29,015 nt of DNA from Saccoglossus kowalevskii (taxonomy: Eukaryota; Hemichordata; Enteropneusta; Harrimaniidae). The notes beneath the pieces are model-generated. The model had not been told where the DNA came from and made no database searches. It saw nothing but the letters and a program-made list of their open reading frames with translations. Both the position numbers and the translations under genes were made by a program. Positions 1-21,480 of the stretch are shown piece after piece. Numbering within the stretch: position 1 is the stretch's first letter; every line of letters begins with the position of its first letter. Where the stretch lies: assembly GCF_000003605.2 (NCBI RefSeq), contig NW_003142811.1, forward strand, positions 41,219-70,233. The letters are read 5' to 3'.

Positions 1-129
1 AATCAAAACGTAAAGGTTGAATCCTTCCATCGGTAGCGCCTGAACCGAGCATTTATTCATTACATACTCTACGTCCGGAACACATATATCGGAGCTCAAA
101 CGGGCGTAAACTATCGTTAGAGTGTGCGC
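1..129 (-). CDS. Possible exon of a TDRD9/Spindle-E-like DExH helicase, cut by the window edge
   Basis: The minus strand is open for 43 codons from position 129 to the window edge. It contains SSDICVPDVEYVM followed by a cysteine three residues later. TDRD9/Spindle-E helicases, which act in piRNA-dependent transposon silencing, have a C-terminal helicase-domain segment of the form ESS-x-T-VPDV-x-YVIDFC, and this stretch resembles it (VPDV, YV and C in register). The reading frame opens directly after an AG (minus-strand ...GCATAG), as expected for a 3' splice acceptor; the codon just upstream is TAG. The usual IDF is replaced by MNK, so it could be a decayed copy or a chance match. No other helicase motif was found on the minus strand of this window. 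The rest of such a domain would lie outside the window to the left. Confidence 0.25.
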
Positions 130-287
130 CTATGCATATGGTAAACTGTAAATAGTTAATACTACAATATAGTTACGTTTGTACAATTATGACATCATGA
201 GTATATTAGTATAAGTTATCACAAATTTTCTACGAGCAATGACGACGTCGTGAAATAATTATGACGTCTCGAACGACACGACTTTTA
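130..287. other. Non-coding stretch, nothing recognised
   Basis: AT-rich sequence with no convincing open frame. A GACGACGTCG near 241-250 and a GACATCATG near 191 resemble CRE-type half sites but have no supporting context. Confidence 0.5.
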
Positions 288-400
288 TGAATGAACGGTA
301 GAAGGCGCTCTGACGCACACGGTCATACATTCACTACATGTTTCTCAAGATGAATGAACGGTAGAGGGCGGTCCAACGCACACGTATATACATTCACTAC
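288..400 (+). repeat. Two-copy tandem repeat, 63-bp period
   Basis: Copy 1 at 288-337 and copy 2 at 351-400 both run from TGAATGAACGGTAGA to CATTCACTAC and share GGGCG/AGGCG and ACGCACAC in between, with a handful of substitutions. The start-to-start distance is 63 bp. The copies are richer in G+C and CpG than their surroundings. No coding potential was seen. Confidence 0.8.
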
Positions 401-2069: not shown

Positions 2070-2210
2070 TGTAATATTGTGTGTAGTTTTCACTTGTGAA
2101 GTATTGAAAAAAAATGCATTTGCTGTAATTTATTAGATCTCCTTGTGAATAAAGTTGATTTGATATATAAACGCAACGATCATTCTCTGTTTAACGTGGT
2201 TGCTGTTACA
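2070..2210 (-). repeat. 3' LTR of the Gypsy relic (inner end firm, outer end tentative)
   Basis: The minus strand begins TGTAACAGCA at 2210, directly after a polypurine tract, which fits the TGT...ACA ends of Ty3/Gypsy LTRs. A possible outer end is the minus-strand ...CAATATTACA at 2070, giving a 5-bp terminal inverted repeat (TGTAA/TTACA) and a length near 141 bp. Inside are a TATATA stretch near 2164 and a minus-strand AATAAA at 2129-2134, as expected for an LTR promoter and polyadenylation signal. No second LTR is present in the window for comparison, so the outer boundary is uncertain. Confidence 0.5.
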
Positions 2211-2220
2211 TCACCTCCCT
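2211..2220 (-). other. Polypurine tract of the Gypsy relic
   Basis: The minus strand reads AGGGAGGTGA immediately before the putative LTR start TGTAACAG. This is the expected composition and position of the plus-strand priming site of an LTR retrotransposon. Confidence 0.6.
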
Positions 2221-2417
2221 AAATATCAACACAGTAAGGTGAAGAATTTATATTCAGTACAAATCTGGCCTCTCTTTTATGGAAAAGTTTGGCTGTATAC
2301 TTTTCAATGCACTGCATTATTACCTCACTTTGGAGCCTCCGGAACTCACGGAGATCCTGATCAAAACACGATCTATATTGAGCTAACTTGTTTGACTTTT
2401 GTGAAATTGTTGTAAAG

Positions 2418-3240
2418 CATTAAGTCAGATCTTTTCTTGTACACTGTACGTTATTTTCATTCCTCGGTTTTGCGTTCGTAATCCATTGAGGCCTAATTGA
2501 TTTGGATAATTTACTAAAGTGAGATACAATCAAAGAAGGGTGACCCAACATGTCTAAAAACAATCGCACGTTCGAAGCACTTCCTGGACGTTTCATGTCA
2601 CGAATGGATTAACTACGCGTTTTATCACAATGCATGCATTTTTTACCAAATACGAAGCGAAAAAAAAAATATTTGTGGAACTGAAAATACACATTTTCTT
2701 AAACCTAGCGTAATTCCTTTATCACACAACGTAGTCAAACACTTATCTAGGGTCCGGTAATGCACATTTTGAGTTTTACTGTGTATAATATCGACTGCGA
2801 TACTTTCAATACTTGCGAGATCTGACAGTGCTAAAGTCATTTTATTTTGGCAAATTTCAGCAGTCGCATTTATGCCAAATGGGAGATGTTCATATCGCCT
2901 TAAACCAACATAGGTACTTATTGTGGTGAGATTTCCACATTCTTCTTCGAGTTCAAATTGCAAATAGTGATCATTAGCGTCAAGTTTACTATTTCTTGCA
3001 CAGACAGGGTTACATGGCGCTCTCTGAATTTACGACAATGTAATCGCCACATATTCTCACATTATCAGCTCCAGATTTAGGCACAACAACAAAAGGAATT
3101 ACCCATGGAGTTGGACCATTTACCTACTCCAAAATATCGTCTTCCTGTAATAATTTTCATTCGTTTTCGACCTTTTTTCTCAAATGGTATGGAACGTGTC
3201 TATGGCCTTGTTTTAAGGGTCTGACTTTCGAATCAATATG
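2418..3240 (-). pseudogene. Gypsy reverse transcriptase and start of connection/RNase H region, frameshifted
   Basis: Several frames carry consecutive RT blocks. At 3181-3240 a segment with VRPLKQGHRHVPYHL matches the pre-RT region. At 3061-3120, GPTPWVIPFVVVPKS is the conserved substrate-binding block, followed by VRIC near 3050-3060. After a frameshift, KLDANDHYLQFELEEE and then LTTISTYVGLRRYEHLPFG (about 2880-2985) give the FSKLD and thumb-side blocks. The catalytic YxDD-type region reads VDII, so the aspartate pair is damaged. An A-run at about 2661-2670 breaks the frame again. NVRLFLDMLG and HFSKLSKS (about 2490-2575) correspond to the connection segment after RT. In-frame TGA and TAG occur at about 3121-3160. 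It cannot encode an active enzyme. Confidence 0.85.
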
Positions 3241-3400
3241 TAACTTGTATGTTATTTTTCGCTGCATTCATCCATCCAAATGTACTTTTATAATTATAAA
3301 TTATTTTTTTCACAGAATCTGGACAATATGGGATATTCTAGTTAATGTTACTCTTTGTATCACGTCGTGTATTGTTTTGTCGCATGGTGTACATGTGATC

Positions 3401-3709
3401 CTATTCGTCGTGATTGTGTGCATATTCTTTCTGAATGAGAATTAATTTGTTTCTCTGAAAACCGTAGGCTTCTTTCATGACGGATAGTCCAAAATTTACA
3501 AAACTGTAGCTGTCCAGTACTATACAGGTTTCCAGGTCAACATTGGTTTGTACTATACATTTACATTTTGTTTTCCAAGAAGAAACTTTCCTATCCATTG
3601 TTTCTAAAATTACATTATCATTAATAAATTCATTATCATGCCTATTTAATACGTTACATGAAGCACCAAAATCTAACTTGAAATCAATGGATTTATTCTC
3701 CGTATTCAA
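3401..3709 (-). pseudogene. Gypsy aspartic protease remnant
   Basis: The open frame contains FKLDFGASCNVL, matching the retropepsin active-site block FKLDTGAxCNV, with DTG altered to DFG. Downstream residues (CKCIVQTNVDLET and GLSVMKEAYGFQRNKL) fit the C-terminal half of Gypsy proteases that process the Gag-Pol polyprotein. It sits between the zinc knuckles and RT, as in intact elements. The altered active-site triad and the separate frame argue against activity. Confidence 0.7.
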
Positions 3710-3840
3710 CGTAGTGAAGGGAAGTTTTGCATGTTATTGGTTAAAATTAGTAAATTGAATATATACTCGTCTCTGTCGGAGCAATCGTCAGCACAGGTAT
3801 GTTTGATTTTAGTACTTAGATTGTTAGAATCTTTCCTTTT

Positions 3841-3960
3841 TCAACCTTCTAACTTGTGACAACAACGAACAGAGTGTACAGTTTTATGGCAAAAGTTGAA
3901 TTGTTTACCCATTGCAGGGCAATGACTCTTGTGTGGAGATTCATGACCCCATTTATCACA
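3841..3960 (-). pseudogene. Gypsy gag zinc-knuckle segment
   Basis: In the frame ending at a TGA (3841-3843) the minus strand encodes a C-x-x-[C lost to W]-G-H...H-x-x-x-CPAMGK segment followed by FCHKTVHSVRCCHK. This matches the tandem CCHC knuckles of Gypsy gag (typically C-G-H-...-CPAxGKxCxxCGKxxH...C), which bind the element's RNA. One cysteine of the first knuckle is replaced by tryptophan, and one of the second by phenylalanine. The frame differs from the upstream gag segment, which indicates a frameshift near 4000. Confidence 0.7.
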
Positions 3961-4037
3961 AGGGCGTTGCGTCGTCGGTACTTGGTCCAGAGATCTACGG
4001 GCGTTCTGAGGGAACTCTATGGGAGAACGCGCTGCCG

Positions 4038-4365
4038 TCAGGTTGGTGGTGGAGTTTCGTCGTTGACAGGAAATGTCTTCACGAAATCAGGATAACCACC
4101 TATACCTATAGTGTCATGGCCAAGAGACATTTCATCTTGCAAAGTACGACGGCGAACCTTCTCAATCTTCTCTCCCTGTATGAGTTGATGTTTATTTTCG
4201 GCGTCTACTGTGTCTTCAATACCACAGTTATTTATCTGTTTCCTTGAACGAGTTACAAACTTGTCAATGCTTTCCTGCTGTCGTCTTGATTGGCACACTG
4301 AAATTGATAAATTTTAAACTCAAGAACGTAAAAAGAAAGTAGTCTTCTAATGCTTTAATCAAATG
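4038..4365 (-). pseudogene. Gypsy gag (retrotransposon gag domain) remnant
   Basis: The minus strand encodes QSRRQQESIDKFVTRSRKQI, followed by LIQGEKIEKVRRRTLQDE. This fits the conserved retrotransposon gag block in which RxQ.. E(S/T)IDxFVTxLR precedes an I.GI.D...R..LL segment. A further upstream piece, LIKALEDYFLF at about 4330-4365, aligns with the preceding K.LE.F..Y(F) block but is in a different frame. Gag forms the capsid-like particle of the element. The N-terminal part of gag was not found above 4365. Confidence 0.75.
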
Positions 4366-4609
4366 GCTAGACTCTCGTATGTCGCCGTTTTTGTAGAGTG
4401 AATGGAATCATGATGGCCATCGCATCTTCATAACATATTGAATACTACGTTCATGCGCTGCGTATCTTTCCAATAGTAAAACACGACATTCCAACTGTCT
4501 ATTAACAATTCGCGTCCGTTTTGTGCGATTATTGTATACACAGCAAAACAACTTATATGCTGGCCACACACGTAAATGTGCTAATAAAAAGTATTTCAGT
4601 GTTTAAAAA

Positions 4610-4786
4610 TAGCTTTGCGTGTTGCTATTACTGATGCTAGATCATTGGCTGTCAAGTGTTTACATTTTGAATGACCTATGACATCATGCATATATGCACG
4701 TAGATTTGGAGTCAATGATCACGGGATATTGAATCCCAGTTATAAAGATTATTGTGGCGGTATGCATTTAAATACACACTCGAATT
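4610..4786 (-). repeat. Dispersed repeat family R1, copy 1 (inverted)
   Basis: The reverse complement shares long blocks with 8436-8620, including GATGTCATAGGTCATTCAAA, ATGTAAACACTT, CAGCCAA, GATCTAGCATCAG and TAGCAACA, preceded by GAGTGTGTATT...GCATAC. The third copy is at 14005-14125. No coding frame is shared, so this is a non-coding element such as an unclassified SINE/MITE fragment or a duplicated regulatory module. Confidence 0.8.
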
Positions 4787-7071
4787 AGATGACATTTCAT
4801 AATAATTAACCAATCAATAATTAACCAAATTACTTTATATTAGTACACAATAAACACAACTTAACACAATCGATTATTTCGGTGCAAAAATAATATATAC
4901 CACTGTCTTACATTGACTATTATATGTTATTGTATGATTTTTCTTAAACTTCCGCTTTGTATGAAGGTCTACTGTTTATTGGAACATTTCATTCTTCAAT
5001 ATAGGCTTTTTGTATATGTTCAGAAATCCCCATATCCTATGATACTTACAACATGACTCCTTATATATGATAATGGTATACCTTTTAGTGAAATATACAT
5101 TTGCGAACGAGATTATAAAGAAACGAAGTTCCCGAACGTTGATGACCCGTTGATACGTAAGATCATTTATAAAAGTTAGAAATCTTTTATATATGGGCAT
5201 ATGATTATGCTTGAGAACGTGCAGCCTTATTAGTAGTCCGATAATGTAGTTTCAATGAGTAAAAACCAAACAATACTTTACACTAAAATAAATACAATAG
5301 GTTAAATATGCGATTACTTGGCTACTTTTGTATAAAACTGCCCTCTAATAATTCAGATACGAACACATTAAGAACATATAAACACTCACATACAACATTG
5401 AAAGTAGCTGTAATGGCACTTTAGTATAATAGAATAAATAAATAAATGAGGATCGTTTCCCATTAGATGATGATGTTTTACCCCCTGCCAGGGAAATTAG
5501 GGAGTAGCAACTTTTTAACCTTGGCAAGAGAAGTTGCAGATACGTCAACTAAAATAATATATTATAGTGAAAATATAACACGATAACTATTGTAAAAAAA
5601 CTAAATATACTATGTGTTTATATAGTTATTTTATCTACGTTATTTATAAAAATAAAACAATACAACTCAACTTTGTTTTCTCACAACTTCATTTCAAAAT
5701 ATAACTATAACCACTTTACTTCATATGTATTAATGTCAAATCACAACATCTGCAACTTAGTGAGTTATCAACTAATATTATTGAACAAAACATGTACCGT
5801 GTCTGCCAACTTTGGTGCTTAAATCTTGCATGTCAATGTTTTACTGTTATGCTACTGACAACAGCGTAACAGCTGCGTGCACTGAACAAATGAAATTTTG
5901 TTGTGGTTTTCTGCATCCATTTTGACGATAAGTTTTAGATTACCGTATCTTTAGTTATATAAACTTAAAAAGAAACCTTGTATTCGATGCCCATGTTCGT
6001 TTGTGCGAACTCACTAGCCAACACAATATGTTTGCGTGATTCTTAGTACATGCAGACGTGACAAGATTGTAAGGTCGGTGTTATTTGCATAGATTGACGA
6101 CTGAAATGCTATTCATTCCATTTTACGCAACTGATTCTCTTCAAATTAAGTTGGCGTACTGAAATATGAGAGATTAGAGTTCCACAAACTTTTATTATTT
6201 AGGAGAAAACCCGAAAATATATATGCAAAGAATTTGTGAATGTATAATAACTGTGTTTTTTTGTGCCATATATTCCGTGAATATAAGGGTTTTGACAAGA
6301 CAGATGTAAAGTTAAAAATCTTTTAGCCTGGTTGTCATAGGTTAACATTTAGGCTTTATCTCTGTATTTACACGGATTTTTTCGTGTTTATATAGTCCCG
6401 TAAATTAAGTGAGTCAGACCCAAGATTGATAAACCTCCCGCATCTTGAGCATTTTTAATTTAATTCGCATCACTACAAAATTACCAACACGAAGTAGTAT
6501 TCAATTATTCATACAGAAACACTGTGCATCCCCATCCACCACAACAAAGATGTTCCCAAGAACAAAATGATGTTACAATAAATAGCATAATATTGTGGTA
6601 TTAGAGTATCTGTTTTTAGTTATATACAGGCAAACATAAATCAAATAGAAACTTGCTTTGATCTAAAAATAATAATATCCTTATTCGGGATACACTCTAA
6701 CAAACAACTACTTACTAAATATGGTTTACATAACCAGTGCGTCTCGTATCATTTACAATAGTTATACACGTTATACCGACAGTATGCTAGTAGGTTATAC
6801 GTGTTTACATGTACTATCAATACAGTATGGGAGCTATATTATTTGTGTAATGCCGTTTGCTTTTATTCCTTTAAATTTCTTGCTCATTTTATGCATTCAC
6901 TAAATTACAATATCCCAATATGCCCATCTATAAGACAATTCCAACGTTTTTTATTAACGTTTTAGAAACTCGTTTCTTTACGGTGCTTTGTTATGTTATT
7001 TACCAACCTCAGAAAATCAACTATAGAATTTGGACAACTAGGGATTTCTAGTCCCTTCCATTGCTGGTACT
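4787..7071. other. AT-rich non-coding stretch, nothing recognised
   Basis: No open frame showed a known domain or coding-like composition on either strand. Short open frames at 4976-5200 (minus), 5345-5548 (minus) and 6721-6903 (plus) have low-complexity, AT-driven residue composition. No clear repeats were seen. Confidence 0.5.
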
Positions 7072-7475
7072 TTAACTACTTGCAAATTTGGTCATATAAA
7101 CAGATGGTGTTTCAAATGCTACGGGTCTGTTGCTCATCTTAATAAGTGTATTGTCATGGTAAAAAATTAACAGCTTGGGTTGGAAACAATAGAGAATGAA
7201 GCCTACTATCTCATTACAGTCATCAGTTAGAATCATTGTGACAAACATGTCTTGCATAGATGAGTCATATGTTGCTGCTACAAACAATGAATGAGTGGAT
7301 GAATTTTCTTGATGTAGATATAAGTGAAAACAACACTCTCAGTGTATGTGGCACTAGTATACGGTTTCGCTTAACGCAGACGAAATATTTCCAATGTAAA
7401 TTAGGTCGATGTTACGCAACGGCGAGTACAATAAATAGCCCAAACAGCAAGGACGTCTTTTGTTTCCAACAATGA
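7072..7475. other. Two short overlapping open frames of unknown status
   Basis: A 71-codon minus frame (7072-7287) and a 71-codon plus frame (7260-7475) overlap at their starts. Both have balanced residue composition but no recognisable domain, signal peptide or splice context. They are reported only because composition here is less AT-skewed than in the flanks. Confidence 0.15.
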
Positions 7476-7666
7476 CCCACCAACAAGGAAACAACCATCC
7501 TTTGTTTTTATCCATTGAGTTCTCAAGTGGGGAAGAGCCAAGAAAAATGAATATTTACTGAATCAGTTCATCGAGGCATACTCAGTAATACAGTCCCAGT
7601 ATCGACTCACACCAATAACGGAATCAAGTATGGCTATAGTCGTCCGCGAATTCGAATAAATCTTAC

Positions 7667-7830
7667 CGAGTTTCTCGCGGTTCGTAATAACGTTTTTGTC
7701 ACTTCATGTTGCTAGTCCAATTATAAAATAAATTCTAAAATGACCAACACTCGACAACCCTCCAAAGTCGAAAATATGGTCCCTACAACACGAGCAAAGC
7801 CAGACATGTGTGTGACGTCACTTCCTTGAT
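7667..7830 (-). promoter_or_regulatory. Possible minus-strand promoter and first exon with a perfect CRE
   Basis: A perfect CRE palindrome TGACGTCA lies at 7813-7820, flanked on the plus strand by CTTCC (ETS-like). Reading the minus strand from it, an ATG at 7805-7807 opens a 28-codon frame ending at 7721, and a donor-like CG|GTAAGA lies at 7661-7667. The stretch 7590-7870 is richer in CpG than its surroundings (CGTCCGCG, CTCGCGG, CCGACCG). This fits a CREB/ATF-controlled promoter with a short first exon, but no downstream exon was recognised. Confidence 0.25.
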
Positions 7831-8435
7831 ACATCACAAGCCGACCGAACACTGGGTGTCACGATCCAAACCGTATTTAATAAGTTTTAAAATCACTTAT
7901 TTTGCCTGATTTGACCACCACGCACTCGCCTAACACATAAATGGGAACATTTGGGAAAACACTATATGTATTAAAGATGGATTGCTAGTATCTTCAGCTA
8001 TCCATTTTAAGCCGACCAAAATGGCAACAGGCTGGCACCTTTATAGATAATACATAATAGGTATGCAAATGCGGTCAAAGATCGGCCGTCTTGTCAGTTT
8101 ATTGTTGGCAATGCTTACATTAACAGAACTATTCATTGGGTGGCCTAGAGTTAGTACAATTAAGGTACAATTCTAGTTCTCTGGCCATCAAACATGATTA
8201 ATCGTGTTTTTTTGTGTGTAAATAAAGTAATAATAGCCAATACCATATTCGTTGAAACATGTTTATTACAGAAAATCGGCTTAAGTTTGGCAAATTTACC
8301 TAATTTATATTCAGGAATTGTGTATATTATTACCGAACGAGTTAATTGCTTGCGATAAGATATGTTATTCATCAATCTACAATATTGTGCACTACTATAA
8401 AGACAATAGGTGAATGCATGTGCAATTAGTCACCA
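7831..8435. other. Non-coding stretch, nothing recognised
   Basis: No gene or repeat was recognised. Two similar CCGACC-containing words (GCCGACCGAAC near 7843 and GCCGACCAAAA near 8011) and GATCGGCCG near 8083 are the only local echoes. Confidence 0.5.
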
Positions 8436-8620
8436 GATTGGAGTGTGTATTCAACGCATACAGCCGTATTACTTATATAGAGCACGAACTGACAATAATA
8501 CTACATGCAGATACGACTGATGTCATAGGTCATTCAAAATGTAAACACTTCGCAGCCAAAGTATTTAAATAGCTGATCTAGCATCAGATGTAGCAGCAAC
8601 TGGAATAGCTGGCAGTTGAA
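8436..8620 (+). repeat. Dispersed repeat family R1, copy 2
   Basis: This is the best-preserved direct-orientation copy. In order it holds GAGTGTGTATT, GCATACAGCCG, TGATGTCA, AGGTCA, TGTAAACACTT, GATCTAGCATCAG, TAGCAGCAAC and TGGCAG. The blocks from TGATGTCA onward recur at 14005-14125, and almost all recur inverted at 4610-4786. See the first copy for interpretation. Confidence 0.8.
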
Positions 8621-9227
8621 TGTTTTGTAGCACAGAAATCATAATTGATTTAATCATTGAACGGTGAAACGTATGATACCCAAACAAATATTGCTGGTAA
8701 TATTTAGGATTATTCGAATCGATATTTTGGTAAAACGATTCTTGTCTTACAGTATTTTAATATGAAAACTGCATGATTTATTCGAAATACGGTAAGGTAA
8801 ACTAGAGTGAACTTCGTTTAATCTAAATGCCTGTATTTATACCGATATTGAAGCAACCACGTAACCTATGGAAGCGGGAATACCATAATATTTTGCACAA
8901 TCCGCGACAAAAAAACCCACAAACATGAGCTTGGTGAAAATGGTATACGGCGTATTTTACAATGGCTTGCTTCATTAAAAGTACTTTCTCGACTAATCAG
9001 AACGACGTATTCGTGCAAGTGAAATGCTGATATAATGTCATGTAACTTCAATTTTTAATTCCACCATGCCATTTTTTGTAGTGAGCGTCAATCAAAATTA
9101 CATAATTCAAAATCAGAATTCAAATCATTTACTCCAGAAAATATGTATTGTATTAAAAGTAAACAAGGTTTTCAAAATGTTATGTAATTGTGCATAATTT
9201 GACTGAAATAGTGTACCTTCTTTAATA
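8621..9227. other. Non-coding stretch with one TTTTGCACAATC motif
   Basis: No gene was recognised. The 12-mer TTTTGCACAATC at 8891-8902 recurs at 10097-10108 and, inverted, at 10063-10074. Minus-strand TTCCCGCTTCC followed by GGTTACGTGG (about 8855-8877) is a weak echo of the modules in the 11-kb and 19-kb blocks. Confidence 0.4.
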
Positions 9228-9656
9228 GTGAGTGACTGCGAACCAATCACAGCCACGTCTCTCGCGACAGCCAGGTTGCAGTATGTCATTGCTCAGCGTT
9301 ATAGGGTACAGTACAGTACACAGTTTTTTTGTGAAATTTATTTTAAACTGTGGAATGTATTTTTTAGAACCAATTTGGAAGATAGTGATAAGAACTGCTT
9401 GCAGACTCAAAAACTTAAGCAAATCATGGTACAGGCTATGAAAGATCGTGCACTTGATCACTATATCCGGCCGATCACCAGTACGTCATATGTTAAACAG
9501 ATTTCACCATACAACGAGGTAACGAGGTCGCCATGTTTCACACGTATATAATAGGTAATTTTCCTGTTCACATACGAGTGTAGATTCATTCTACTCACCA
9601 TTTTCGTCTGTCAGAGAACGCGATTAAAAGATGAATCTGTGGAACAGCTTTGCTCA
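9228..9656 (+). other. Possible exon pair, unrecognised
   Basis: An open frame at 9228-9551 has a coding-like residue mix in its second half (NLEDSDKNCLQTQKLKQIMV and similar). At about 9615-9656, AGAACGCGATTAAAAGATG... is flanked by an acceptor-like CTGTCAG and a donor-like GGG|GTAGGTGC, and encodes RTRLKDESVEQLCSYDG. A CCAAT motif occurs at about 9243. No domain was recognised. These may be chance open frames. Confidence 0.15.
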
Positions 9657-9794
9657 TATGATGGGGTAGGTGCGGGCGCACAGTAGAACATTTCGTTATC
9701 ATTCAGTATAGATATTGGTTTACATCTCATTAATACACATACATTAACTTGGCGATTCATTGTATTAAAAATGTAATCGTAGCTCTGTGTATCA

Positions 9795-9970
9795 AACTAT
9801 GTGCAAATGGTCACATTACGGAATATGTCAATTTGTTGAAATCTACAAGAAGTCAAGTTCTCCTGTTCAACATTGTGGTTTGAACTTTGCTCAGACATTG
9901 TGTAAATATACTTACTCAAGCAATTTGTTAAGGTAAATCGTGTAGGCACACAATATGTAACCCATTAATT
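9795..9970 (+). repeat. Direct repeat R2, copy 1
   Basis: Shares with 10180-10362 the ordered blocks ATATGTCAA, ACAAGAAGT, GTGGTTTGAA, TTTG-TC/CC-AGACATTGTGT, ACTCAA, TTAAGGTAAATCGTGT and CAATATGTAAC-CATTA. The offset is about 385 bp. Confidence 0.8.
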
Positions 9971-10012
9971 AGCCAAACTAGATGCGCCGCTGAAGAAGAC
10001 ATACCATGAGAG

Positions 10013-10073
10013 TTTGCACAATCCTCCTATAAACACAACCGTGCGCGTCTGTGTATGGAGTTGATTGTGCAAA
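10013..10073. repeat. Imperfect 24-25-bp hairpin carrying TTTGCACAATC
   Basis: The left arm 10013-10037 begins TTTGCACAATC, then CTCCTATAAACACA. The right arm 10050-10073 is TGTGTATGGAG then TTGATTGTGCAAA, nearly its reverse complement apart from a 2-nt bulge and few mismatches. The loop is the CpG-rich ACCGTGCGCGTC. A further TTTTGCACAATC lies at 10097-10108. Confidence 0.75.
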
Positions 10074-10154
10074 ATTGAGGCGGATAATCTACGAGATTTT
10101 GCACAATCTACGTCATATGCACACAAGAGTGAACGAGTGTGTATCTGTTATGTG

Positions 10155-10320
10155 AAGTGTAAACCACAGTTTGCACACAATTAACGTCTGGGCAAAATTA
10201 TGTGCTGATATGTCAAAAAATAAAGTCAACAAGAAGTTAATTTTCCCTGGTTGTTGCTGTGGTTTGAATTTTGTCCAGACATTGTGTGACCTTACGCACT
10301 CAACCAATGTGTTTACACAA
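10155..10320. repeat. Imperfect inverted repeat (foldback), overlapping R2 copy 2
   Basis: The left arm at about 10157-10200 (GTGTAAACCACAGTTTGCAC, ACGTCTGGGCAAAATTA) is largely the reverse complement of the right arm at about 10266-10317 (GAATTTTGTCCAGACATTGT, then AATGTGTTTACAC). The arms are about 45-50 bp with small indels. The loop of about 65 bp is unremarkable. It could be a MITE-like foldback element. Confidence 0.6.
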
Positions 10321-10362
10321 GTTAAGGTAAATCGTGTGGACAAACAATATGTAACACATTAG
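10180..10362 (+). repeat. Direct repeat R2, copy 2
   Basis: Second copy of the unit at 9795-9970; see there for shared blocks. It carries the right arm of the foldback at 10155-10320. Confidence 0.8.
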
Positions 10363-11100: not shown

Positions 11101-11211
11101 AATATATACAGTTTGTCGTATTATTGTTCACTGTTTTGTGATGTAATTGTGACAAATATTTGGGTTAACTGTTTCATTGAATACCGAAATGCATCATGGG
11201 CTAACATACAT

Positions 11212-11290
11212 ATTCCCGCCTAATACGTTACCTATAGCTATCACGTGTTTACGTTTGCGAGTGCATCGCCGTACGGCCGAGGTGAGTATC
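11212..11290 (+). promoter_or_regulatory. Module A1: E2F-like site, TATA-like stretch, E-box, splice-donor-like site
   Basis: ATTCCCGCC at 11212-11220 resembles an E2F site. TAATACGTTAC follows, then CTATAGCTA, then a perfect E-box CACGTG at 11242-11247. GAGGTGAGTATC ends in a strong 5' splice-site-like GTGAGT at 11282-11287. The first 20 bases, from ATTCCCGCC through GTTAC, are identical to B1. As a repeat the module is certain; as a promoter with a very short first exon it is inference. Confidence 0.4.
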
Positions 11291-11400
11291 GTTTACCCAA
11301 TCTTGTGTCCTTCAAATCAACTGCTTTTATTTTATATATCTTTCATAATAACAGCATATTCAATGTGTGTTAACATTATATTAAACTAAATTTGTTTAAA

Positions 11401-11448
11401 ATGAGCTCACAGTGGCAAGGGGTGATCGCGCTTGTCAGGACTGCCTGA
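11401..11448 (+). other. Tiny 15-codon ORF downstream of module A1
   Basis: ATGAGCTCACAG begins a 15-codon frame ending in TGA in a locally GC-richer patch (GGGGTGATCGCGC). The homologous place in block B (about 19,285) keeps CTCACAG but lacks the ATG frame, which argues against a conserved peptide. Confidence 0.1.
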
Positions 11449-11794
11449 TCAATGATCACAGCATTGAGACCTCGTGCCATACTCAATATGAAGTACTTCG
11501 TACACCGGCACTAGCCAGTATTAATCTTGACATCAAAATCCAATTCACTTAGAAATTTCATCTGATTTGATCATTTTGTTGCTACGGTCATATGGGTGAC
11601 TAAACTAACGCTAATTTATTTGATTTCCCTTTGTCGTGGCTTCAATAGAATGTACAAGAAGATTAATTTACCAATTATTTTACCTTCTTTTTACAGTATA
11701 AAATAACAATTATATATTTGCAAATTAGATTGAACTAACATATCAAATAATTTAATACATGAGATGAATATATAGCACAGTTTAACAACATACG

Positions 11795-11845
11795 ATTCCC
11801 GCCTAATAAATTACTTATAAAGATATTACGAGACAAAGTTCGCAA
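11795..11845 (+). promoter_or_regulatory. Module A2
   Basis: ATTCCCGCC at 11795-11803, then TAATAAATTAC, TTATAAAG and a degraded E-box position (TTACGAG), then TTCGCAATTG, which is also present in B2. It is preceded by CACAGTTTAACAACATACG, closely matching B2. No GTGAGT follows. Confidence 0.35.
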
Positions 11846-11999
11846 TTGAATCAGCCCAATGTTAAGTTGCATGTCTCCATAGTACGAATTATAATATCAT
11901 TTCAGATTGCTTCATCTACATAGATCTAATTCTCTGAATTAATATCTGAAAATTAATTATGTTATTTCTAAAATAAATTTACATGTCACAGTATCAATT

Positions 12000-12019
12000 A
12001 GAAATTTCTGGAAATTTCC
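12000..12019 (+). promoter_or_regulatory. Perfect four-unit heat-shock-element-like array
   Basis: The sequence GAAATTTCTGGAAATTTC (12001-12018) has the strict alternation GAA-nn-TTC-nn-GAA-nn-TTC expected of a heat shock factor binding site. It lies in the spacer between modules A2 and A3 and is not conserved at the matching place in block B. Confidence 0.4.
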
Positions 12020-12052
12020 TTGTCCAATATACGACCACAAAGCTGAATTGTT

Positions 12053-12070
12053 ACTTGTAACGTTACAAGT
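12053..12070. repeat. Perfect 18-bp palindrome
   Basis: ACTTGTAACGTTACAAGT is exactly its own reverse complement. Block B keeps only TTTGTAACGATT at the matching place (about 20,033). Confidence 0.8.
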
Positions 12071-12150
12071 GAGTTTACACCAATTATGAAGCATGGTTCA
12101 ACTGTCATTGTATATATCATACTCTATCAACGTATGCATTAACGACATAA

Positions 12151-12200
12151 GATTCCCGATTAATACGTTAATTATATAAATATCACGTGGACATTGACTC
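12151..12200 (+). promoter_or_regulatory. Module A3
   Basis: GATTCCCGAT at 12151-12160 (E2F-like site altered at its end), TAATACGTTA, TATATAAATA and a perfect CACGTG at 12184-12189. The upstream flank AACGACATAAG matches the flanks of the other modules. Confidence 0.35.
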
Positions 12201-12497
12201 GCTGCCAAAGTCGATATGCTGGTTTATTGAATATTTATCCACTCCTGCATAGGATACAATACAACTAATGGACTAATCACTGTGAAACAAGCCTGGTTCT
12301 TATTATTTTTAATAGCTGAAGTGCGTTTGGTATATAATAGCGTTTTGCGCTTTTTCCCCATTCTTTCGGTTGTTTTTTAATTTGTTTTCCTTGGATCATT
12401 CCTCGGATTATGTCTAAGAATAGAATAATTCAAAATATTTGTACACGAGTTTTACTTTTACGCCCAAATGCTCTGTGAATCAACATATACATATAGT

Positions 12498-12545
12498 GTT
12501 CCCGCTATGTATGTCACTTACAACCTATAAATACCACGTGTTTTG
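12498..12545 (+). promoter_or_regulatory. Module A4
   Basis: GTTCCCGC at 12498-12505, a spacer, CTATAAATA and CACGTG at 12535-12540. The upstream GAATCAACATATACATATAG matches B4 (about 20,678), where the TATA and E-box are also adjacent (ATAAATACCACGTG in both). Confidence 0.4.
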
Positions 12546-13810
12546 CGTTTTTATCTATTTCAAATCTATTGCGTATTATCCCTGTTATAAAGGTTTGCTA
12601 ATGCGTTATAATTTATATGGACTTTGACCTGATTCAATGCATATTATTTATACTCAAGACACCAACTACCTTCTTTCTTAAATGTCTATAAATGAGAATA
12701 AATATCTAATTGAACATATATTTTAATTACCAATACGCGATAACACGTCTGGAGTGATTGGTTTTGCCATATTAGAACGGGTTTGTTCATGCGCAATTAA
12801 GGTCATATTACCTTGTTGACACATTCATACAAGGAATCAAAACGCACAAAACAAGAAAACAATTCTATATGTAAGTTCGAAGATTAACAAGACCAATATC
12901 TGTAGCACTTGTGAAAGAGTTCCGAAGTTTTAACTGCTTGAAACCAAGGCTGTATGACATTTGTATTCTTCCAAGTGCCATTGAACCTTCATCAATATCT
13001 TAAATTATCAGATGGATGTGACATTTAATCAATAAAACGTATAAAAGTGTTTTTCATTCAATTCTATCAGTCAGAATATTTGTATAAAATTGTACATGTA
13101 TATGATTAAGGACATAACGAATTCTTTTTTACGGCATTATTTTGTAAGGAGGTATAGGTTTGTTGTAAAATTATATTTTTTCTAATCAACTTGATGGTTA
13201 TATGATTTGTTTTCAATTACTTTTGGCAGCACCTGGCTTAATCGAGTTCAATAATAATATTTGTAATATTTATGCGGAGAGTAAACAAATGGTTTTGTTT
13301 TTGTTTTTCCAATCCGAGAGTGTATAAGTGAACTTGCAATTGTAATTATAACAATCTACTGAATTTGAATCAATTACTAATTGAAGTCAACTTTTGCACC
13401 AACCGTTGGTCACTAAATGGCACAAATTAATAAATTTGAAAAAAACATAATGTCCAAACTCACTTAATGTTTTTTTGTTGCTTTTTTGTTTCACTGTCAC
13501 ATAATATCAATATATTTAATCATGCCAATTGTCTTTTAAAAAGGGTAATTAAAAATTATTCATTAGATGTTTTGCTGCAATTTGAATTTATGAATTGACA
13601 TTTTATTATTTTATTATTTCACCCACTAAATTCAGTGTACTTATTTCATAGATGGTTTATCGCTACTGATAACTTCCTCGGTCAAGACGTTCAAAAACAC
13701 CTTTTTCAAAGCCTCATGAGAAAACTTCATCAATTTTACTAGGGAGTTCAAAACACAAATTATGAGGAAAAATCATAATATCAAAATTGAGATAAAGGTT
13801 AATCCGAACT

Positions 13811-14004
13811 TGAGGTTAATGTTTTCGGTTAAGATGTTTACTTCAAATCAAACAGATTATATTGATACAAAGGGGTAATCGCAATTTAAAATTGAAAACA
13901 TTTCATTCCGTATTCAATTCCGGGAGCTCGTAATTTCGGTGTACATGAGCAGTCAGCTGTTAAATTGAGACCAGTCGTATTCGTGTTCGGTTATTAACCC
14001 CAGA
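13811..14004. other. Non-coding spacer
   Basis: AT-rich sequence between the end of block A and the third R1 repeat copy. Nothing further recognised. Confidence 0.4.
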
Positions 14005-14125
14005 TATGCAGATATACAGATATGCATGATGTCACAGGTCAATTTAAATGCAAACACTCGACTGCTAGTGTATTGTAATATTTCATCTAGCTACAGATAT
14101 AGCAACGTGTAGTTGGCAGTGTCTC
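14005..14125 (+). repeat. Dispersed repeat family R1, copy 3
   Basis: The most diverged copy. It retains in order TGATGTCA, AGGTCA, AAATGCAAACACT, ATCTAG, CAGATATAGCAAC and TTGGCAG. The forkhead-like TGTAAACA of the other copies is TGCAAACA here. Confidence 0.7.
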
Positions 14126-16007
14126 GAAATACAATAGTTGATTGTATATATTGCACAGAAGTACCAATTTGCGTAAATCAGTACGTACTAGGTTGCGTAT
14201 GTTTACTATTGTGACCAGCATGTTAGTTATTTAGCTTATATCAACAAGAGACTATAACGAGTAAAATTTAAATAATGTTATTATTGTTCGTTATAGACTT
14301 GCAATGTAGTTTTCATTTTGATGAGAAAGAACTTATAGGTGTATTACTGACTTCAATTGGTAACTCCATAACCGCGGCTGCACTTAATTTCAGAACATGA
14401 AGAATGTACTGTATTTTGATAAAGTATTTACAATATGTGTAAATCAAGTAATATTTCTGAGTAATATCTGGAAAGTATGTTGGTGAGAACCAATATTCAT
14501 CTCTTAGGTTGTCAACCAATTATTGCCCGTTTCCCTTGTTATAGTTGACATAAAATTAACACGTCTCCAGGATCAATGTTATTTATGCTTCAGAAAGAGC
14601 CTACACTCATGTGAATGTATTATAGTTTCATGCCATTGTATTTGCATGACGTGTCCCTTTTGATACAATTAATTAAGCTCAATGTCAAATTTGAGAATTA
14701 ATTTCCAGTCCTTGCTTTTAGAACTCATCCTAATGATTATTATTTGCAAAATGTCATTTCACCGTTTCTTGCTCTTTCTACCTTCACATTTTAATTGTTT
14801 CTCTTGATTCTTCCGGCCTGTGTTTCCTGGTTTACTTTAATTATGGAATATTTAGTTTTTTATGACTCTCATGTTCTTTATTGTATGATTTTATTTCTCA
14901 TTTTACTCTTCCAAGCCTATTAAAATGAAGTTTGTCACATCATTTACTCTCTCAACTTCTATAGTTAAATTTAGTTCATGCTTTACACCACCAGTTACCA
15001 TGGTATGATTTTCCTCTCAAACTTTAATGTCTCAACAATTATGGTATGGTATGTGTTTCAAATTTCAATCACTCGGTCCTTGTAGTGTGATTTTTGTCTC
15101 ATGCTCTTCCCTCTCAACTCATATTGTGTTAGGCGTGCATGACGTGTCGTTGTTTTCTCGTTGCAATACTGTTCTATGCTTGCAAGTCAGTCTTCCGTGA
15201 ACCGGATTTTTTTCAGCGGTACAACGATCCGCTGGCTCCAGCTTGATTTAAAGATTTAGCAGTTTAAATTGTTAATCACAGTTTAGTGTAATTTCATCGT
15301 CATTAGTTTCATTAACAGTAAATGTAGTAAATCAATAATACAGATTATGAAGGCAGCTTTTGCCCTCGGCTACCCTGAGATTAATGTCCTGTCAGAAGCA
15401 CTACATTATGGTTTCATTTTTTTAGCATACACTGAGTTTAATATTGCGTATATTGTCGAGTGCACTTTATTTATTTAATTTATTAAATTATCGTAAAAAG
15501 TTGTAGTTTTGTATCGCTTTGGCGTCATTTGATTTGACGTGTTTTGTCCAATTATGCTGGTCAAACGCTGGGAATTTTGCAATAGTTAAGGTTGATAACT
15601 GCCTCAGTTTAACCCATTCACTCGTACATTGTTTACTTTTGGATAAATGTCCCTTGCTACTGTAGGGACTCTAACTCGTTGCGAATTGACTTAAATACAC
15701 AGGGTTTTAATCTGACTGATTCCTGCTGGGATTTGAGCAATGTGCAATGTGACTAAATTAATAACATGTTCCCTTTATATTGAGTAAACCGTTACCTGAT
15801 AGTATATGATTGCGTTTGCTGTATATTCCCATTGACTACAGCAGAGTCACGAATTACTGCTTATTGGATATTGGTTATATACAAACATACAAGTCACAAT
15901 TAGTGCACGCCTTTTCATCACATGATGTACAATTATTTAAAAATGAGAGAAATAATTATCCGAAAAAATAAATAAATCAGACTTGCCTGATATAATTACT
16001 TGCATAG
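14126..16007. other. AT-rich non-coding stretch with a pyrimidine-rich part
   Basis: No gene was recognised. From about 14,750 to 15,130 the plus strand is pyrimidine-rich and repeats loose phrases such as GTATGATTTT, CTCATGCTCTTCC and CTCTCAACT at irregular distances. This may be a degenerate tandem repeat, but copies are too diverged to delimit. Confidence 0.4.
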
Positions 16008-16214
16008 GAAAATAAATTATATTTGTACTCTTGTCAATGATGTTGCAGTGTTTTGCAATCTTCAATATTTTACATTGTCACTGGTTGACATCCTGCAGAC
16101 GATTGAGTTTCCCGCGGTAACAACCTTCTGTTTGTATAATGCATTCGTTTACTCGATGTATACTTTCAGTATGTCAGGAAATCGATACATTTATCTACGA
16201 AACATATATTTGAA
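16008..16214 (+). CDS. Possible DEG/ENaC-family channel exon (or relic)
   Basis: An open plus frame spans this interval and encodes LVDILQTIEFPAVT followed by TFCLYNAFVYS. DEG/ENaC/ASIC sodium channels have a near-invariant extracellular block just after TM1, FPAVT-(I/V)-CN-x-N-x-(F/Y)-x-x-S. Here FPAVT is exact (codons 16108-16122), and C, N, F and S follow in order with one extra residue after FPAVT. The interval is bounded by an acceptor-like TTGCATAG (AG at 16006-16007) and a donor-like GAA|GTAAAT (GT at 16215-16216), so it has exon form. The expected hydrophobic TM1 segment upstream of FPAVT is weak, and no further channel exon (cysteine-rich loop, GxS filter) was recognised, so it may be an isolated relic or a chance match. 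Confidence 0.4.
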
Positions 16215-16216
16215 GT

Positions 16217-17880
16217 AAATACGGGATAGGTCATGTTTGAGGCTACTCCGTATATTTCAACGCTTCAGCTCTTTTAGCCTTGTTACGATTACGAGATGGG
16301 AATTTTTTGGCGAACGTTTAATAATACAATTCTTATTTTGTGCGAAGGGAAATGACGAACCTTAATAGTAAGAGTCTTTGAAATAATGCGTTTTCATCAT
16401 TCAATTTTGAGCAATATCATTTCATTGCGGCGATTGAATAATTTCATCGTCCGGGTTGTAACTACACGTGTTTTTTTTCATCTGGAATGAACAGTTCCAT
16501 CGCTGGCTGAGAAATAGATATTTTAGATAATGAATTAAAATGATACACAGATACATATCTTAGTTAACGAATTGTTAAATCTTGCAAAAATATTTAGCAT
16601 TATACTTGTCTGCATATTTACTGATTATGCAAATCATTTGATGGTGTACATTTAGATTGACTGACACGTTACTGTGCTTCAGTATATACTTAATACATAT
16701 CGCTTGATATGTTAGACATTTATGACTCACGTGTGTATATTCGTATTTTCATTAGGATGTTGCCAAATCGACGCCATGTTTGTTAGTGTTAGTAGTTAGT
16801 AACATTCCTCTATTCAGTAACTTATACGTTTTGAGAGGTTTGACCCAGAGTTTGCATGACCTTTAATGTATTTGTACATACAAAATAACTCATTTGCGAT
16901 TTTAAGAAAAACGCTTAATGTGTTTAATTATAAATCACTTAAAGTGATTTTAAAGTTGGACGAAAATGTGTAATATTTTAAAAAACATAGATTTACACTG
17001 TAACAACTGATCCGTAGTACATGGTTTTAACAGTGCCCTATTAATGCTTTCAGCATTTGAAGATGGAAAAGTACGGACAATATTAAGCCGTGATTTAAAA
17101 CATTAACGCAGTTTTTAAATGGTTATGAATGGTTATAGTTAACATTTTCGAATTGTTTTAACTGCAGCTCCTGACTATAATTATACGGGGCAACTTTGCT
17201 TAGTACAACTCTTTATCGTCTTATTGACACTACTCAACAATATGTTAAAATAAGAATATGTATTTTATTTTTTCGCCAGGAAGAGCATTGTCCTGTTAAC
17301 ATACAGGTCCAGGACATTGTTGTCTTTGATAAGTAATTTTATCAAACAATCGGTTCTACACAAAATCAGCTAGACATAGAACGATTGTCCATTCATTTTG
17401 AATGCTGATCATGTATTTCCTTTAACACCTCTTTTTAAACTAAAGAAGGCATAATGCATGGCATTGATGACACACGTGATCACATATTTGTTGTGAAACA
17501 GGCTACTATGAAAGAATATGTTCCGATGTTAGCCGTAATGTAATAAGCATAAATATTCCCAGGTTTCTTACATTTCTAAATGTTTAGGACAAATTTTGCC
17601 GGGATGACTTGAATTCAAATGTTATTTATGTGCACACAACAAACGTATTGCATACCTGTTTAACGCTTCTAGATTTAACTGAGCATGTAAAATAATTGTG
17701 ATCTAATTGATATGCACTAATTTATTTCGATATTACAAACAAAAATAATAATAATTGTTTTTTCATTTCATGGCAACTTACAGACATTATTCAAAATCGC
17801 AATCAAAACACCTTTATTTCAAATAAGTTGATGCTACCAGGGAATCAAAATTTGGGACGTAAATTATTTGGACGACAATT
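16217..17880. other. AT-rich non-coding stretch
   Basis: No gene was recognised. It contains an inverted repeat AAATCACTT/AAGTGATTT around one base (16932-16950), which also forms two facing NK2-type CACTTAA/TTAAAGTG motifs, and a short inverted repeat TGTCCTG/CAGGACA (17289-17316). Confidence 0.5.
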
Positions 17881-18560
17881 ATAACCAAGGGGTGAGAGAC
17901 TACTTACCGCGGCGACATGAAGCTACGGTGTCTGCGACCCCAATCATATTTTAATTTTAGTAAGCTAAGGCAAAACCCGTGTTTATGCTATGAGAAAGTG
18001 CAGTATTTTAGTGGAAATACATTTTTTACTATCACGGCGAACGCAATTTAATGCGAGTGAATTCCCCTACAAATTTCCCTAGTTGTTTGCGGTGTCCAAG
18101 GGCAAAAACATTGTTATGCAAATTAGCTTTAGTTGAAATTTTGAGTTTTCTCGACGATTTGAACCAAAATGTTATCGGCAAGACTCGGGGTACGACAGCG
18201 ACAGTCAATGAAACGTTATTGAAGGCAAATGAACATGTCAGCCAAAAACGACTGTTTCGAGTTGTGGCGTAAAATGAAGGCACATACCATTTTGACGCTT
18301 GAGGGGAATGGAAATCAGTTGATTTGAGGGTGTCACAATAAGCGAGGGAGCAATTCGTGTTTATGCTACGAAAAAATGCAGACCTTGAACGTACTTTTTG
18401 GACTTTGGTACTACGTAAATTTTGTTTGATATCCTAAGGTTTTTAGGTTCATGTGCTGCAAGTTACAGAGCACATACCAAAGCGGTCGTCGCTCAGCAAA
18501 TAATCAAGCAAAAGAATTTTCGATGTCGAAATCGCGAAACTCGCTCCTTTTACGCAAACT
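17881..18560. repeat. GC-richer island with an internal degenerate direct repeat
   Basis: The phrase CGTGTTTATGCTATGAGAAA followed by GTGCAG (about 17,979) recurs as CGTGTTTATGCTACGAAAAA followed by ATGCAG (about 18,355). GGCACATACCA (about 18,278) is echoed by AGCACATACCA (about 18,470). The island is richer in CpG than its flanks. Open frames of 73 codons on plus (18051-18272) and 83 on minus (18032-18283) overlap almost completely. Neither shows a known domain. A fragment of an unrecognised transposable element is the most likely explanation. Confidence 0.45.
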
Positions 18561-18969
18561 GGGACGTTCAAATTACATAACGATATACAGGACGACGAAG
18601 CTTAGCTCTATGCTGATATAAATGACATATCATGTCATTGCATAGCGTTTAAGGGTACATAGAAGCACGATGCAGTGTTTTAACTCGACTTTAAGTGAAG
18701 GGTCATTTCCAAGAGTAATCTCCATGTAGCCGTATGTGGAACTACATATTAGTTCATGATTACGCACGTAACAGTTTATTGACGCTGAATAAAAAAAGTA
18801 GAAAATAATATGTGGATGAGTCAATATAACCATCATCCGCGTTTCTGTTGATATTATATAGGATGATTTGAATTGGTCACATTAGAAATTCAACTTTTTG
18901 AATTGTTTAAATCCACAACAGATACCATTGATAATCTAGAAAATGAAATTTAACAATTTTTCTCGTTAT
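18561..18969. other. Non-coding stretch with one inverted repeat
   Basis: An exact inverted repeat AATGACAT/ATGTCATT with a 3-nt centre lies at 18621-18639. Nothing else was recognised before block B. Confidence 0.5.
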
Positions 18970-19114
18970 TGCTATTGGTTGTGTTTTGTGGTTCGTCATT
19001 AACTTTATGAACTGTAAAATTACTGCGTAGGTTATGACTCAAAAGCCAAAACATATTTGTGTAACTAACACATCAAACACCGAAATGCCTTCTGGGTGAA
19101 GCCACACTAACATC

Positions 19115-19197
19115 ATTCCCGCCTAATACGTTACCTGTATGCCTGTCACGTGTTTACATTCGCAATTACACCATTGTGCGGCCTGAGGTGAGTGTCA
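19115..19197 (+). promoter_or_regulatory. Module B1
   Basis: ATTCCCGCC at 19115-19123, TAATACGTTACC, a lost TATA position (CTGTATGCC), CACGTG at 19147-19152, then TTCGCAATT and GAGGTGAGTGTC with GTGAGT at 19188-19193. The E-box-to-GTGAGT gap is 35 nt, against 34 nt in A1. Confidence 0.4.
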
Positions 19198-19719
19198 TTT
19201 TCAAAACCATTGCTCCCAATGTATACAACTGATATAGTATTCAACAACATACGTTAACACTATAATTTAGATGAATTTGTGTCAGTTACCTCACAGTCGG
19301 AGAATAGATATTCTAAATTATTATGAGCCAAATTGTGGTAATGTGTACCACTGCATGACTGCGTCTGTTTCGTGTGCTTTGCACTAATGTTAAAGTTTTT
19401 CATTTTCCGCAGAAATCTCTACTTTGTGTGACATGCGTTACATTCCTTGATTTTTAGGATATTTACATATTCCATCCACACATAGCGCAGAGTTAGCTTG
19501 GTCCGCATTGATATTCTTGCTGATTTTGTCAGTCCAATTTTGGTTGATTTTTCAATAAAAATATATTGCAGTTTTTCACTTGTTATGAAATTTCTACTTC
19601 AGTACACATTTATAAATTTATGAATTATATTTTAACACAGTAGAAAATAGCAAGTAACCAAACTCATCAAACATTGAAATACATGAGGAAGAATATACAG
19701 CACAGTTTAACAATACAAG

Positions 19720-19775
19720 ATTCCCGCCTAATAAGTTACTTATTTAAATATTATGTGACAGAGTTCGCAATTGTA
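19720..19775 (+). promoter_or_regulatory. Module B2
   Basis: ATTCCCGCC at 19720-19728, TAATAAGTTAC, TTATTTAAATA, an altered E-box (TTATGTG), then TTCGCAATTG and ATCAACTCGC. It is preceded by ACAGCACAGTTTAACAATAC as in A2. No GTGAGT follows. Confidence 0.35.
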
Positions 19776-20101
19776 TCAACTCGCTGATTGTATCTTTCAC
19801 CATATGTCTCGTAGTTCAAATTCACTAACCATAGTTCAGACGTATAATACGAATTGTGTTATGTACAGTCATATCAGAGTTCTATGTTTTTATTGGTCAA
19901 TTTGTTTAGATTTTAACTTCGACCTAATTTCCAGTGTAATTAGATATTCTAAAACGTAATTATGTTATCACAAGAGTAAATGTATGTGAAACACAATTAA
20001 TTACTAGTATAACTACAAAGCTGAAATGGTATTTGTAACGATTTCTGAGACATGGTCTGTGAAAATATTATATAATCCCACGCACGCATTACCAACATGA
20101 G

Positions 20102-20180
20102 ATTCCCGCCAAATATGATACTTATAAAAGTATCACATGGCCATATTCACAATTCTATCACAACTGCCGAAGTGAGTATC
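20102..20180 (+). promoter_or_regulatory. Module B3
   Basis: ATTCCCGCC at 20102-20110, AAATATGATAC, TTATAAAAG, CACATG (one change from CACGTG) at 20134-20139, TTCACAATT, and GCCGAAGTGAGTATC with GTGAGT at 20172-20177. The E-box-to-GTGAGT gap is 32 nt. Confidence 0.4.
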
Positions 20181-20696
20181 TAGGCGCGTTTACAAATAGT
20201 ACAAGTTTTCAATGCAAAACAGTTTGTTGCTATACACCTTTTTTGAATAGTAATGTGCACCAATTCGTTATACTTACACTAGTCGTTATTAGACACTCAA
20301 AACGGAAGCTTTATTTCAAAAATTGTTTTAAATAAACGAGTTTCCAGAAATTTAATTCGAAACATGTTTAAAATTACCCGCCAAAATATCATGACCTGCT
20401 AAAATCCATGTGCTGGTCTCTTGAATATATACTCACTTTAGCCTGAAGTAGGGCACAGTACGGCCTTTATTATTGCTGATTTTGTTGTTTCAAGAGTGTT
20501 TTGTTATTATTAATGTACTGTTAATTTATATTTGTTTTCGTTTGTTTCAATATTTTGACATAATTTTTTTGAATTGTACAATCACTGTTTGAATTATGAT
20601 TATGTATACACATAGGGAGCAATTCAAAACATTTGTATCAGGGTTACACAAACACGACGAGCCCTCAAATACACTGCGAATCAACGTACATATAGT

Positions 20697-20745
20697 ATTC
20701 CCGCCCTGAACGTTACGTATTACTTATAAATACCACGTGACCATG
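20697..20745 (+). promoter_or_regulatory. Module B4
   Basis: ATTCCCGCC at 20697-20705, CTGAACGTTACGTATTAC, TTATAAATA and CACGTG at 20734-20739. It has the best TATA of the set. CATGCGTGCAACTTCATCGG follows. No GTGAGT was seen within 60 nt. Confidence 0.4.
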
Positions 20746-21480
20746 CGTGCAACTTCATCGGCACACTTACAGTTCTAATTGAATCTGTGTTGCAAACACC
20801 AAAATAAAGCTGGGATATTGAGTGATAGGTATGATTATGGTAGATCAACAATCTGTACTATTTTGTAATTGGTTCAGAAGTGATACAGTTAGTAAACTCA
20901 AGAATTTGGAAATTTGATTCAGCCCCAAAGAGTTAAAGTGACCTTGAAATTTGTGAATCTGAATCAATTTTCTACTGGAAGTCAAATTTTAGACTATGCG
21001 TTAGATTACTATGAGTAACAATTTCAAAGAAAAGCATAATGTTCAAAAAAATCTGTATGGCAAGTGTTTTACCATATCACGTATATAAACATTAAACGCT
21101 TTTGTGTTGACAAGACTAGTTTTTTCATTTTAGAATTGTAATGGTTTCAATTATTATTTGCTTTTTCAGTGTGATTTCAGCTCCTCTTATTCTTATTATG
21201 ATTTCATGGACATAATTCGATTCCAAACATATATTTTGTGTGCCAGAGTGTTCAATTCCGAACTTTACAAGTGGTATATGTACAAGTAGCTATATGTTAT
21301 TTATTTAAATATTGTTTCTAGCCAATGATTGTTTCGAAACTTAGTGTTTTGATTCTTTGCACGTGTTATTCCGACTGAGACGGATTGTTCAAACACTCTT
21401 TTATAATATACTTCAATTTGACTTTAAAGCATAAATTATGAAGACTAAAAGTGTTCAGAATTTGAAATAAAGTAAAAGTC

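Follow-up and report, generated by a model that had tools for sequence, protein, structure and literature searches.

In the vertebrate UGT1 and clustered protocadherin arrays, large, coding, variable first exons stand in tandem, each with a promoter of its own, and are joined to constant exons. At UGT1, a conserved motif is described upstream of each tandem first exon (PMC1885805). Two further systems invite comparison: the TATA/initiator core promoters of RNA polymerase II (Pol II), and the small nuclear RNA (snRNA) promoters, which combine a proximal sequence element (PSE) with a TATA box and depend on SNAPc. Here, we analyze a stretch of 29,015 nucleotides from the 572 Mb genome (4830 contigs) of Saccoglossus kowalevskii, positions 41219–70233 of contig C3367 (the window), which carries eight copies of a compact module arranged in two clusters of four (A1–A4 and B1–B4). 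Our favoured reading, held with moderate confidence from sequence comparison, sees in these modules a set of Pol II core promoters that were duplicated in tandem.

Within a module, the elements follow one another in the order TTCCCGCC, a TAATACGTTAC-like sequence, TATA and CACGTG. All eight plus-strand copies reported in the initial annotation were recovered by profile and motif searches. In cluster A, module A1 (11213..11264) contains the TTCCCGCC box and CACGTG without a clear TATA; A2 (11796..11847) contains the TTCCCGCC box, TATAAAGA and a degenerate E-box; A3 (12153..12204) the TTCCCGAT box, TATATAAA and CACGTG; and A4 (12499..12550), a longer form, the TTCCCGCT box, TATAAATA and CACGTG. 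In cluster B, B1 (19116..19167) has the TTCCCGCC box and CACGTG without TATA; B2 (19721..19772) the TTCCCGCC box, TATTTAAA and a degenerate E-box; B3 (20103..20154) the TTCCCGCC box, TATAAAAG and CACATG; and B4 (20698..20756), again a longer form, the TTCCCGCC box, TATAAATA and CACGTG. The first coordinate of each module is the start of TTCCCG; the places proposed initially were right, if one or two bases low. The initial motif counts were accurate, with TTCCCGCC exact in six and CACGTG in five of the eight modules; TAATACGTTAC is exact in two only. A TTCCCGC(C/T) box had been assigned to every module, which does not fit the copy at 12153, and a TATA-like box throughout, which holds for modules 2–4 and fails for module 1 of both clusters. 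The spacing, described as near-constant, varies: exact CACGTG starts 29 or 31 bases past the TTCCCG start, and 36 bases past it in A4 and B4. The E2F and Myc/USF/Clock labels attached to the box and to CACGTG denote consensus resemblance only.

The eight modules stand far above chance. A profile built from cluster A alone detects all four B modules at 27.7–36.4 bits, and one built from cluster B detects all four A modules at 21.4–38.6 bits; the best profile scores in 50 first-order Markov windows of equal length were 10.8 and 10.9 bits. A partial resemblance on the minus strand (~8840–8887; 8.8–9.4 bits) in the profile scan of the window is at noise level.

Pattern searches of the genome, together with DNA searches using clusters A and B, revealed one further cluster (C) on the minus strand of contig C1011 (~112.7–113.7 kb), near the contig end. 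Cluster C consists of modules 1 and 2 and a module 3 shortened by ~10 bp. The genome-wide searches score the best candidates only and cover the readable parts of the two contigs, so that further copies may exist; within that reach, the modules are restricted to clusters A, B and C, with nothing convincing elsewhere in the genome. A 19-mer pattern at up to three mismatches occurs in 31 places versus 40 for the reversed control, and all six places with up to two mismatches lie in the three clusters; a 35-place pattern has three genomic matches, all in the window. A model built from all 11 modules scores these modules, its own training set, at 39.9–61.2 bits, and the next best of its 14 matches in 124,507 scanned bases reaches 14.2 bits. 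Contig C3226, with three 3-mismatch matches to the 19-mer, was rejected as a further locus: blastn at E 1e-4 does not align it with the locus, and it scores no higher than 13–14 bits with the module models. The exact 19-mer on a viral contig (L009) is followed by neither TATA nor E-box and was taken as chance. A dispersed transposon was rejected as well, since genome-wide copies embedded in a single transposon consensus, which the initial annotation had named as one outcome that would speak against promoters, were searched for and not found, clusters A, B and C being the only ones detected within the reach of the searches.

The order and strand of the modules are kept across the three clusters. 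Contig C1011 matches the window at 18.7–26 kb in blocks of 69–84% identity (69–75% in the longer ones), identifying B and C as diverged segmental duplicates. A and B have little in common beyond the modules and parts of the near upstream sequence, and their spacers are mostly unalignable. When local alignment scores are compared with those of shuffled sequences and expressed as z, the A–B cores of modules 1–4 reach 22.9, 26.1, 12.6 and 14.0 and the upstream 60 bp 7.3, 17.7, 2.4 and 6.9, versus 1.6, 6.3 and 0.9 for the spacers. The earlier impression that the spacers are more diverged than the modules is thereby borne out. Between A and C, the cores of modules 1 and 2 give z = 20.7 and 28.4; between B and C, the cores of modules 1–3 are 86% identical (132/154) against a background of 77% (714/923; p = 0.019).

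Modules 1, modules 2 and A4 have their closest relative in the same-numbered module of another cluster and not in a neighbour of the same cluster; the exception is B4, whose core has a score of 43 against C3 and of 42 against A4. Module 3 cores resemble modules 2 or 4 no less than they resemble one another (A3–B2 47 versus A3–B3 40; B3–C2 41 versus B3–C3 39; C3–B4 43), and it is their upstream flanks that connect A3 with B3 (z 5.1) and B3 with C3 (z 5.4). Since same-numbered modules are most alike across clusters, the four-module block is most likely older than the duplications that produced A, B and C, with less certainty for module 3. In the B and C comparisons, modules 1 and 2 have a stretch of upstream sequence in common (z 3.7–9.2), unlike A1 and A2 (z 0.7). 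A possible left-edge remnant of unit A lies at 9283..9310 (plus strand), matching 18632–18659 of unit B with a local score of 36, where 200 shuffles reached at most 28, the stretch having first been chosen by eye.

Two flanking elements share in this conservation. Upstream of module 1, an element of the form CCGAAATGC...TGGG occupies 11184..11200 in A1 and, by sequence comparison, has its counterpart at 19080..19096 in B1 (both plus strand); the upstream 60 bp have z = 11.7 for A1–C1 and 7.3 for A1–B1. This element resembles a ZNF143/Staf site. Upstream of module 2, the flank at 11742..11795 (plus strand) is conserved with z = 17.7 for A2–B2 and 29.0 for A2–C2, and blastn aligns 11742–11853 at 84% identity.

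In several respects, the anatomy of the modules resembles that of TATA/initiator promoters. TATAWAWR is matched at all eight positions in five of the 11 modules (A3, A4, B3, B4 and C3; 1.7% of random stretches) and at seven in A2, B2 and C2, so that eight of the 11 carry a TATA-like box of at least 7/8 (16% of random stretches). Five modules place its first T 20 bases past the TTCCCG start; in A4 and B4 the distance is 27 bases, and in C3 it is 12. In the four modules in which both elements are exact, the TATA-to-CACGTG distance is 11 bp (A3) or 9 bp (A4, B4 and C3); it stays within 9–11 bp because the additional bases in A4 and B4 sit upstream of TATA. A CA opening CAATT or CAACT follows 26–28 bp past the TATA T in five of these eight modules (A2, B2, B3, B4 and C3), where the start site would lie. 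Unlike such promoters, module 1 has no TATA, and CACGTG falls between TATA and the putative start, an unusual position for an activator site. We know of no named core promoter element that corresponds to the upstream 19-bp box.

A second signal lies on the plus side only. A 5′ splice-site-like sequence is found 59–72 bp past the TTCCCG start in A1, B1, C1, B3 and C3, with scores of 8.4–12.6 bits in a donor weight matrix. It reads GAG/GTGAGT at 11279..11287 downstream of A1 and at 19185..19193 downstream of B1 (12.6 bits each), and GAA/GTGAGT at 20169..20177 downstream of B3 (8.4 bits), all on the plus strand; the C1 copy reads GTGCGT. No donor-like sequence of at least 8 bits lies downstream of modules 2 and 4 in the plus-side scan of the 11 modules. 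Such donors occur on the plus side of 5/11 modules versus 0/11 on the minus side (best 6.1 bits), and 2.9% of random stretches of the window with 66 start positions contain one; counted by module number only (2/4), the enrichment has p ~0.005. Measured from the aligned CA to the donor, the putative exon spans 24 nt in the cluster B and C copies of module 1 and 21 nt in those of module 3; the CA is missing from A1.

We infer transcription, its direction, start site, splicing and product from these features. The favoured reading supposes an ancestral promoter with an upstream TTCCCGCC-TAATACGTTAC box, a TATA box, CACGTG and a start ~26–28 bp past the first TATA T. This promoter would have been copied in tandem to four, and clusters A, B and C would have arisen as the block was carried along in segmental duplications of larger extent. 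The plus strand would be the transcribed one; the TATA boxes of modules 2–4 would be in use, and modules 1 and 3 would produce a first exon of only ~21–24 nt ending in a 5′ splice site. The products would probably be either non-coding RNAs or 5′ non-coding first exons attached to an exon that lies beyond the readable sequence. As in the UGT1 array, a conserved motif recurs in tandem at the locus, which would also hold first exons, putative here and proposed from the donors of 5/11 modules. In contrast to the UGT1 and protocadherin arrays, the modules revealed no coding exon: the longest frame overlapping a module has 90 amino acids, and the five frames scanned close to the modules or across them contained no similar coding variable exons and no Pfam match with an E value under 0.19. 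The longest ATG/GTG/TTG frame in the window has 111 amino acids, and only a weak reverse transcriptase match came from 10 longer frames of the window that lie clear of the modules.

The tandem promoters of the initial annotation are thus kept as the best-supported reading, on the TATA-like box in 8/11 modules, the one-sided donors and the A–B conservation above the spacers. The family of short transcripts that they were to drive is not upheld: there is no A–B conserved transcript body, no stable fold in the five modules folded and no Rfam family that reaches the curated cut-off. The window holds no gathering-level match to known RNA families; near the modules, only matches far below curated cut-offs were obtained (best, mir-263 at 12942–12993, minus strand, E 0.046, 21.3 bits versus 51.3), and a transfer RNA search of the window returned none.

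Several observations weigh against core promoters. The modules share descent and are not independent in any of the TATA or donor counts. A TATAWAWR match of at least 7/8 is frequent in DNA as AT-rich as the window (GC 27–39% per kb), and module 1 is without a good TATA box in all three clusters. The CA at 26–28 bp is missing from A3 and A4 and replaced by CG in C2, and this distance is slightly below the usual optimum between TATA and start. Five of the six copies of modules 1 and 3 have the donor-like sequence; A3 does not. The downstream 60 bp are hardly conserved between A and B (z = 7.2, 1.7, −1.0 and −0.1 for modules 1–4). The A3–C3 core hardly rises above shuffled sequence (score 20, with 20 also for the best shuffle; z 3.2), the B–C core excess is modest and the B–C flanks show no excess identity (upstream 76%, downstream 73%). 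Finally, module 4 is absent from cluster C.

The main rival, which we consider possible though clearly less probable, is a repeated enhancer or silencer that regulates a distant gene through clustered E2F-like boxes, E-boxes and the upstream ZNF143-like site. The consensus resemblances to factor sites, the conserved upstream flanks of modules 1 and 2 between A and B/C, and the lack of any domain in the five frames of at least 60 amino acids scanned near the modules would all suit such an element; it leaves unexplained the fixed orientation, the TATA-like box in 8/11 modules at a kept 9–11 bp from CACGTG, and the confinement of splice donors to the plus side. A somewhat more doubtful proposal holds that the modules are what is left of an ancient tandem repeat or element specific to the locus, with a 50-bp core that survives by chance or gene conversion and has no present function. 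Segmental duplication is abundant in the region, several modules are damaged (C3, the A3 box, the module 1 TATA) and cluster C lacks one altogether; conversion could also explain why the likeness of module 3 cores to modules 2 or 4 matches that among themselves (A3–B2 47 versus A3–B3 40; C3–B4 43 versus C3–B3 39). The A–B cores, conserved far above their spacers, speak against this proposal, as does the finding that modules 1, 2 and the A4–B4 pair are closest across and not within clusters, B4–C3 (43 versus 42 for B4–A4) excepted. Among variants of the promoter reading, it is improbable that two kinds of promoter alternate in a locus-specific array, modules 1 and 3 giving spliced transcripts with ~22-nt first exons and modules 2 and 4 unspliced ones, with transcript bodies not kept and with selection on the act or choice of starting transcription and not on the RNA sequence.

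Promoters of the snRNA type, which would drive small Pol II or Pol III RNAs, are very improbable. Most modules have the PSE/TATA order, a compact box preceding TATA, and the ZNF143-like site upstream of module 1 would fit. Full-length U2 snRNA genes are present in the genome, and the module profile finds no match in the upstream regions of two of them; one U6 upstream region gives only a minus-strand match at noise level (0.7 bits, E 0.19). This comparison covered the upstream regions of 2/7 U2 matches and 1/3 U6 matches in the genome. The two U2 upstream regions have a common block of their own, with 41/59 columns identical, which may be the PSE of the U2 genes. In both (L039 and L040), this block lies nearer the gene than a common GACGCCAT(A/T)TTG, which resembles a YY1 site. 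The Drosophila PSEA is placed ~40–60 bp upstream of the start (PMC4227766); the module box would sit nearer, at about −48 to −30 of the putative start. An snRNA/PSE promoter was therefore rejected, as the modules have no upstream element in common with the U2 and U6 genes of this genome in the regions compared. Spliced-leader RNA genes, with a short exon ending AG/GT downstream of a small promoter, are the least credible candidate. The putative 21–24 nt exons of B1, C1, B3 and C3 end in the expected way, but their sequences vary between modules and 6/11 modules are without an 8-bit donor. In all five donor-bearing modules, no Sm-like site was found by the pattern used and folds were no better than shuffled (z 0.03 to 1.29), and the candidate was dropped on the differing leaders, the missing Sm-like site and the folds.

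The surroundings of the core promoter candidates are rich in other duplicated sequence. Window positions 1–10194 have an inverted, rearranged paralogous copy on the same contig at ~142.3–149.2 kb (~74–82% over kilobase blocks). A degraded retrotransposon-like pol frame occupies 2646–3029 (minus strand), with an RVT_1 match (E 0.0021) that falls short of the curated cut-off, and frames possibly extending it to 4313 (minus strand) have no supporting match. A 140-bp direct repeat (9839–9967 and 10223–10361, 73%) matches C1011 and a place near 142.4 kb of C3367, with no blastn match in unit B. The segment 25354–25553 has three diverged matches on C1011, contains TGCTGTTTTCGCGGAATC and is possibly another repeated element of the B and C units. 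Exon-like frames at C3367:120096–124335 (plus strand), the last with a transmembrane-like stretch and a basic tail, have no Pfam match above cut-off and may possibly represent a surface receptor gene. On the strand of cluster C and ~12 kb downstream of it, an 85-amino-acid frame (C1011:101200–101454, minus strand) looks vaguely immunoglobulin-like by eye, without Pfam or PDB support.

If the modules are not transcribed, they amount to a conserved non-coding repeat of an ordinary kind within duplicated sequence. If they are promoters, they form a natural series of paralogous core promoters in which a shared plan has been kept while transcripts and spacers decayed. Such a series would make it possible to study where in a promoter constraint acts, and how duplication shapes the evolution of promoter number and of the splice sites of first exons.

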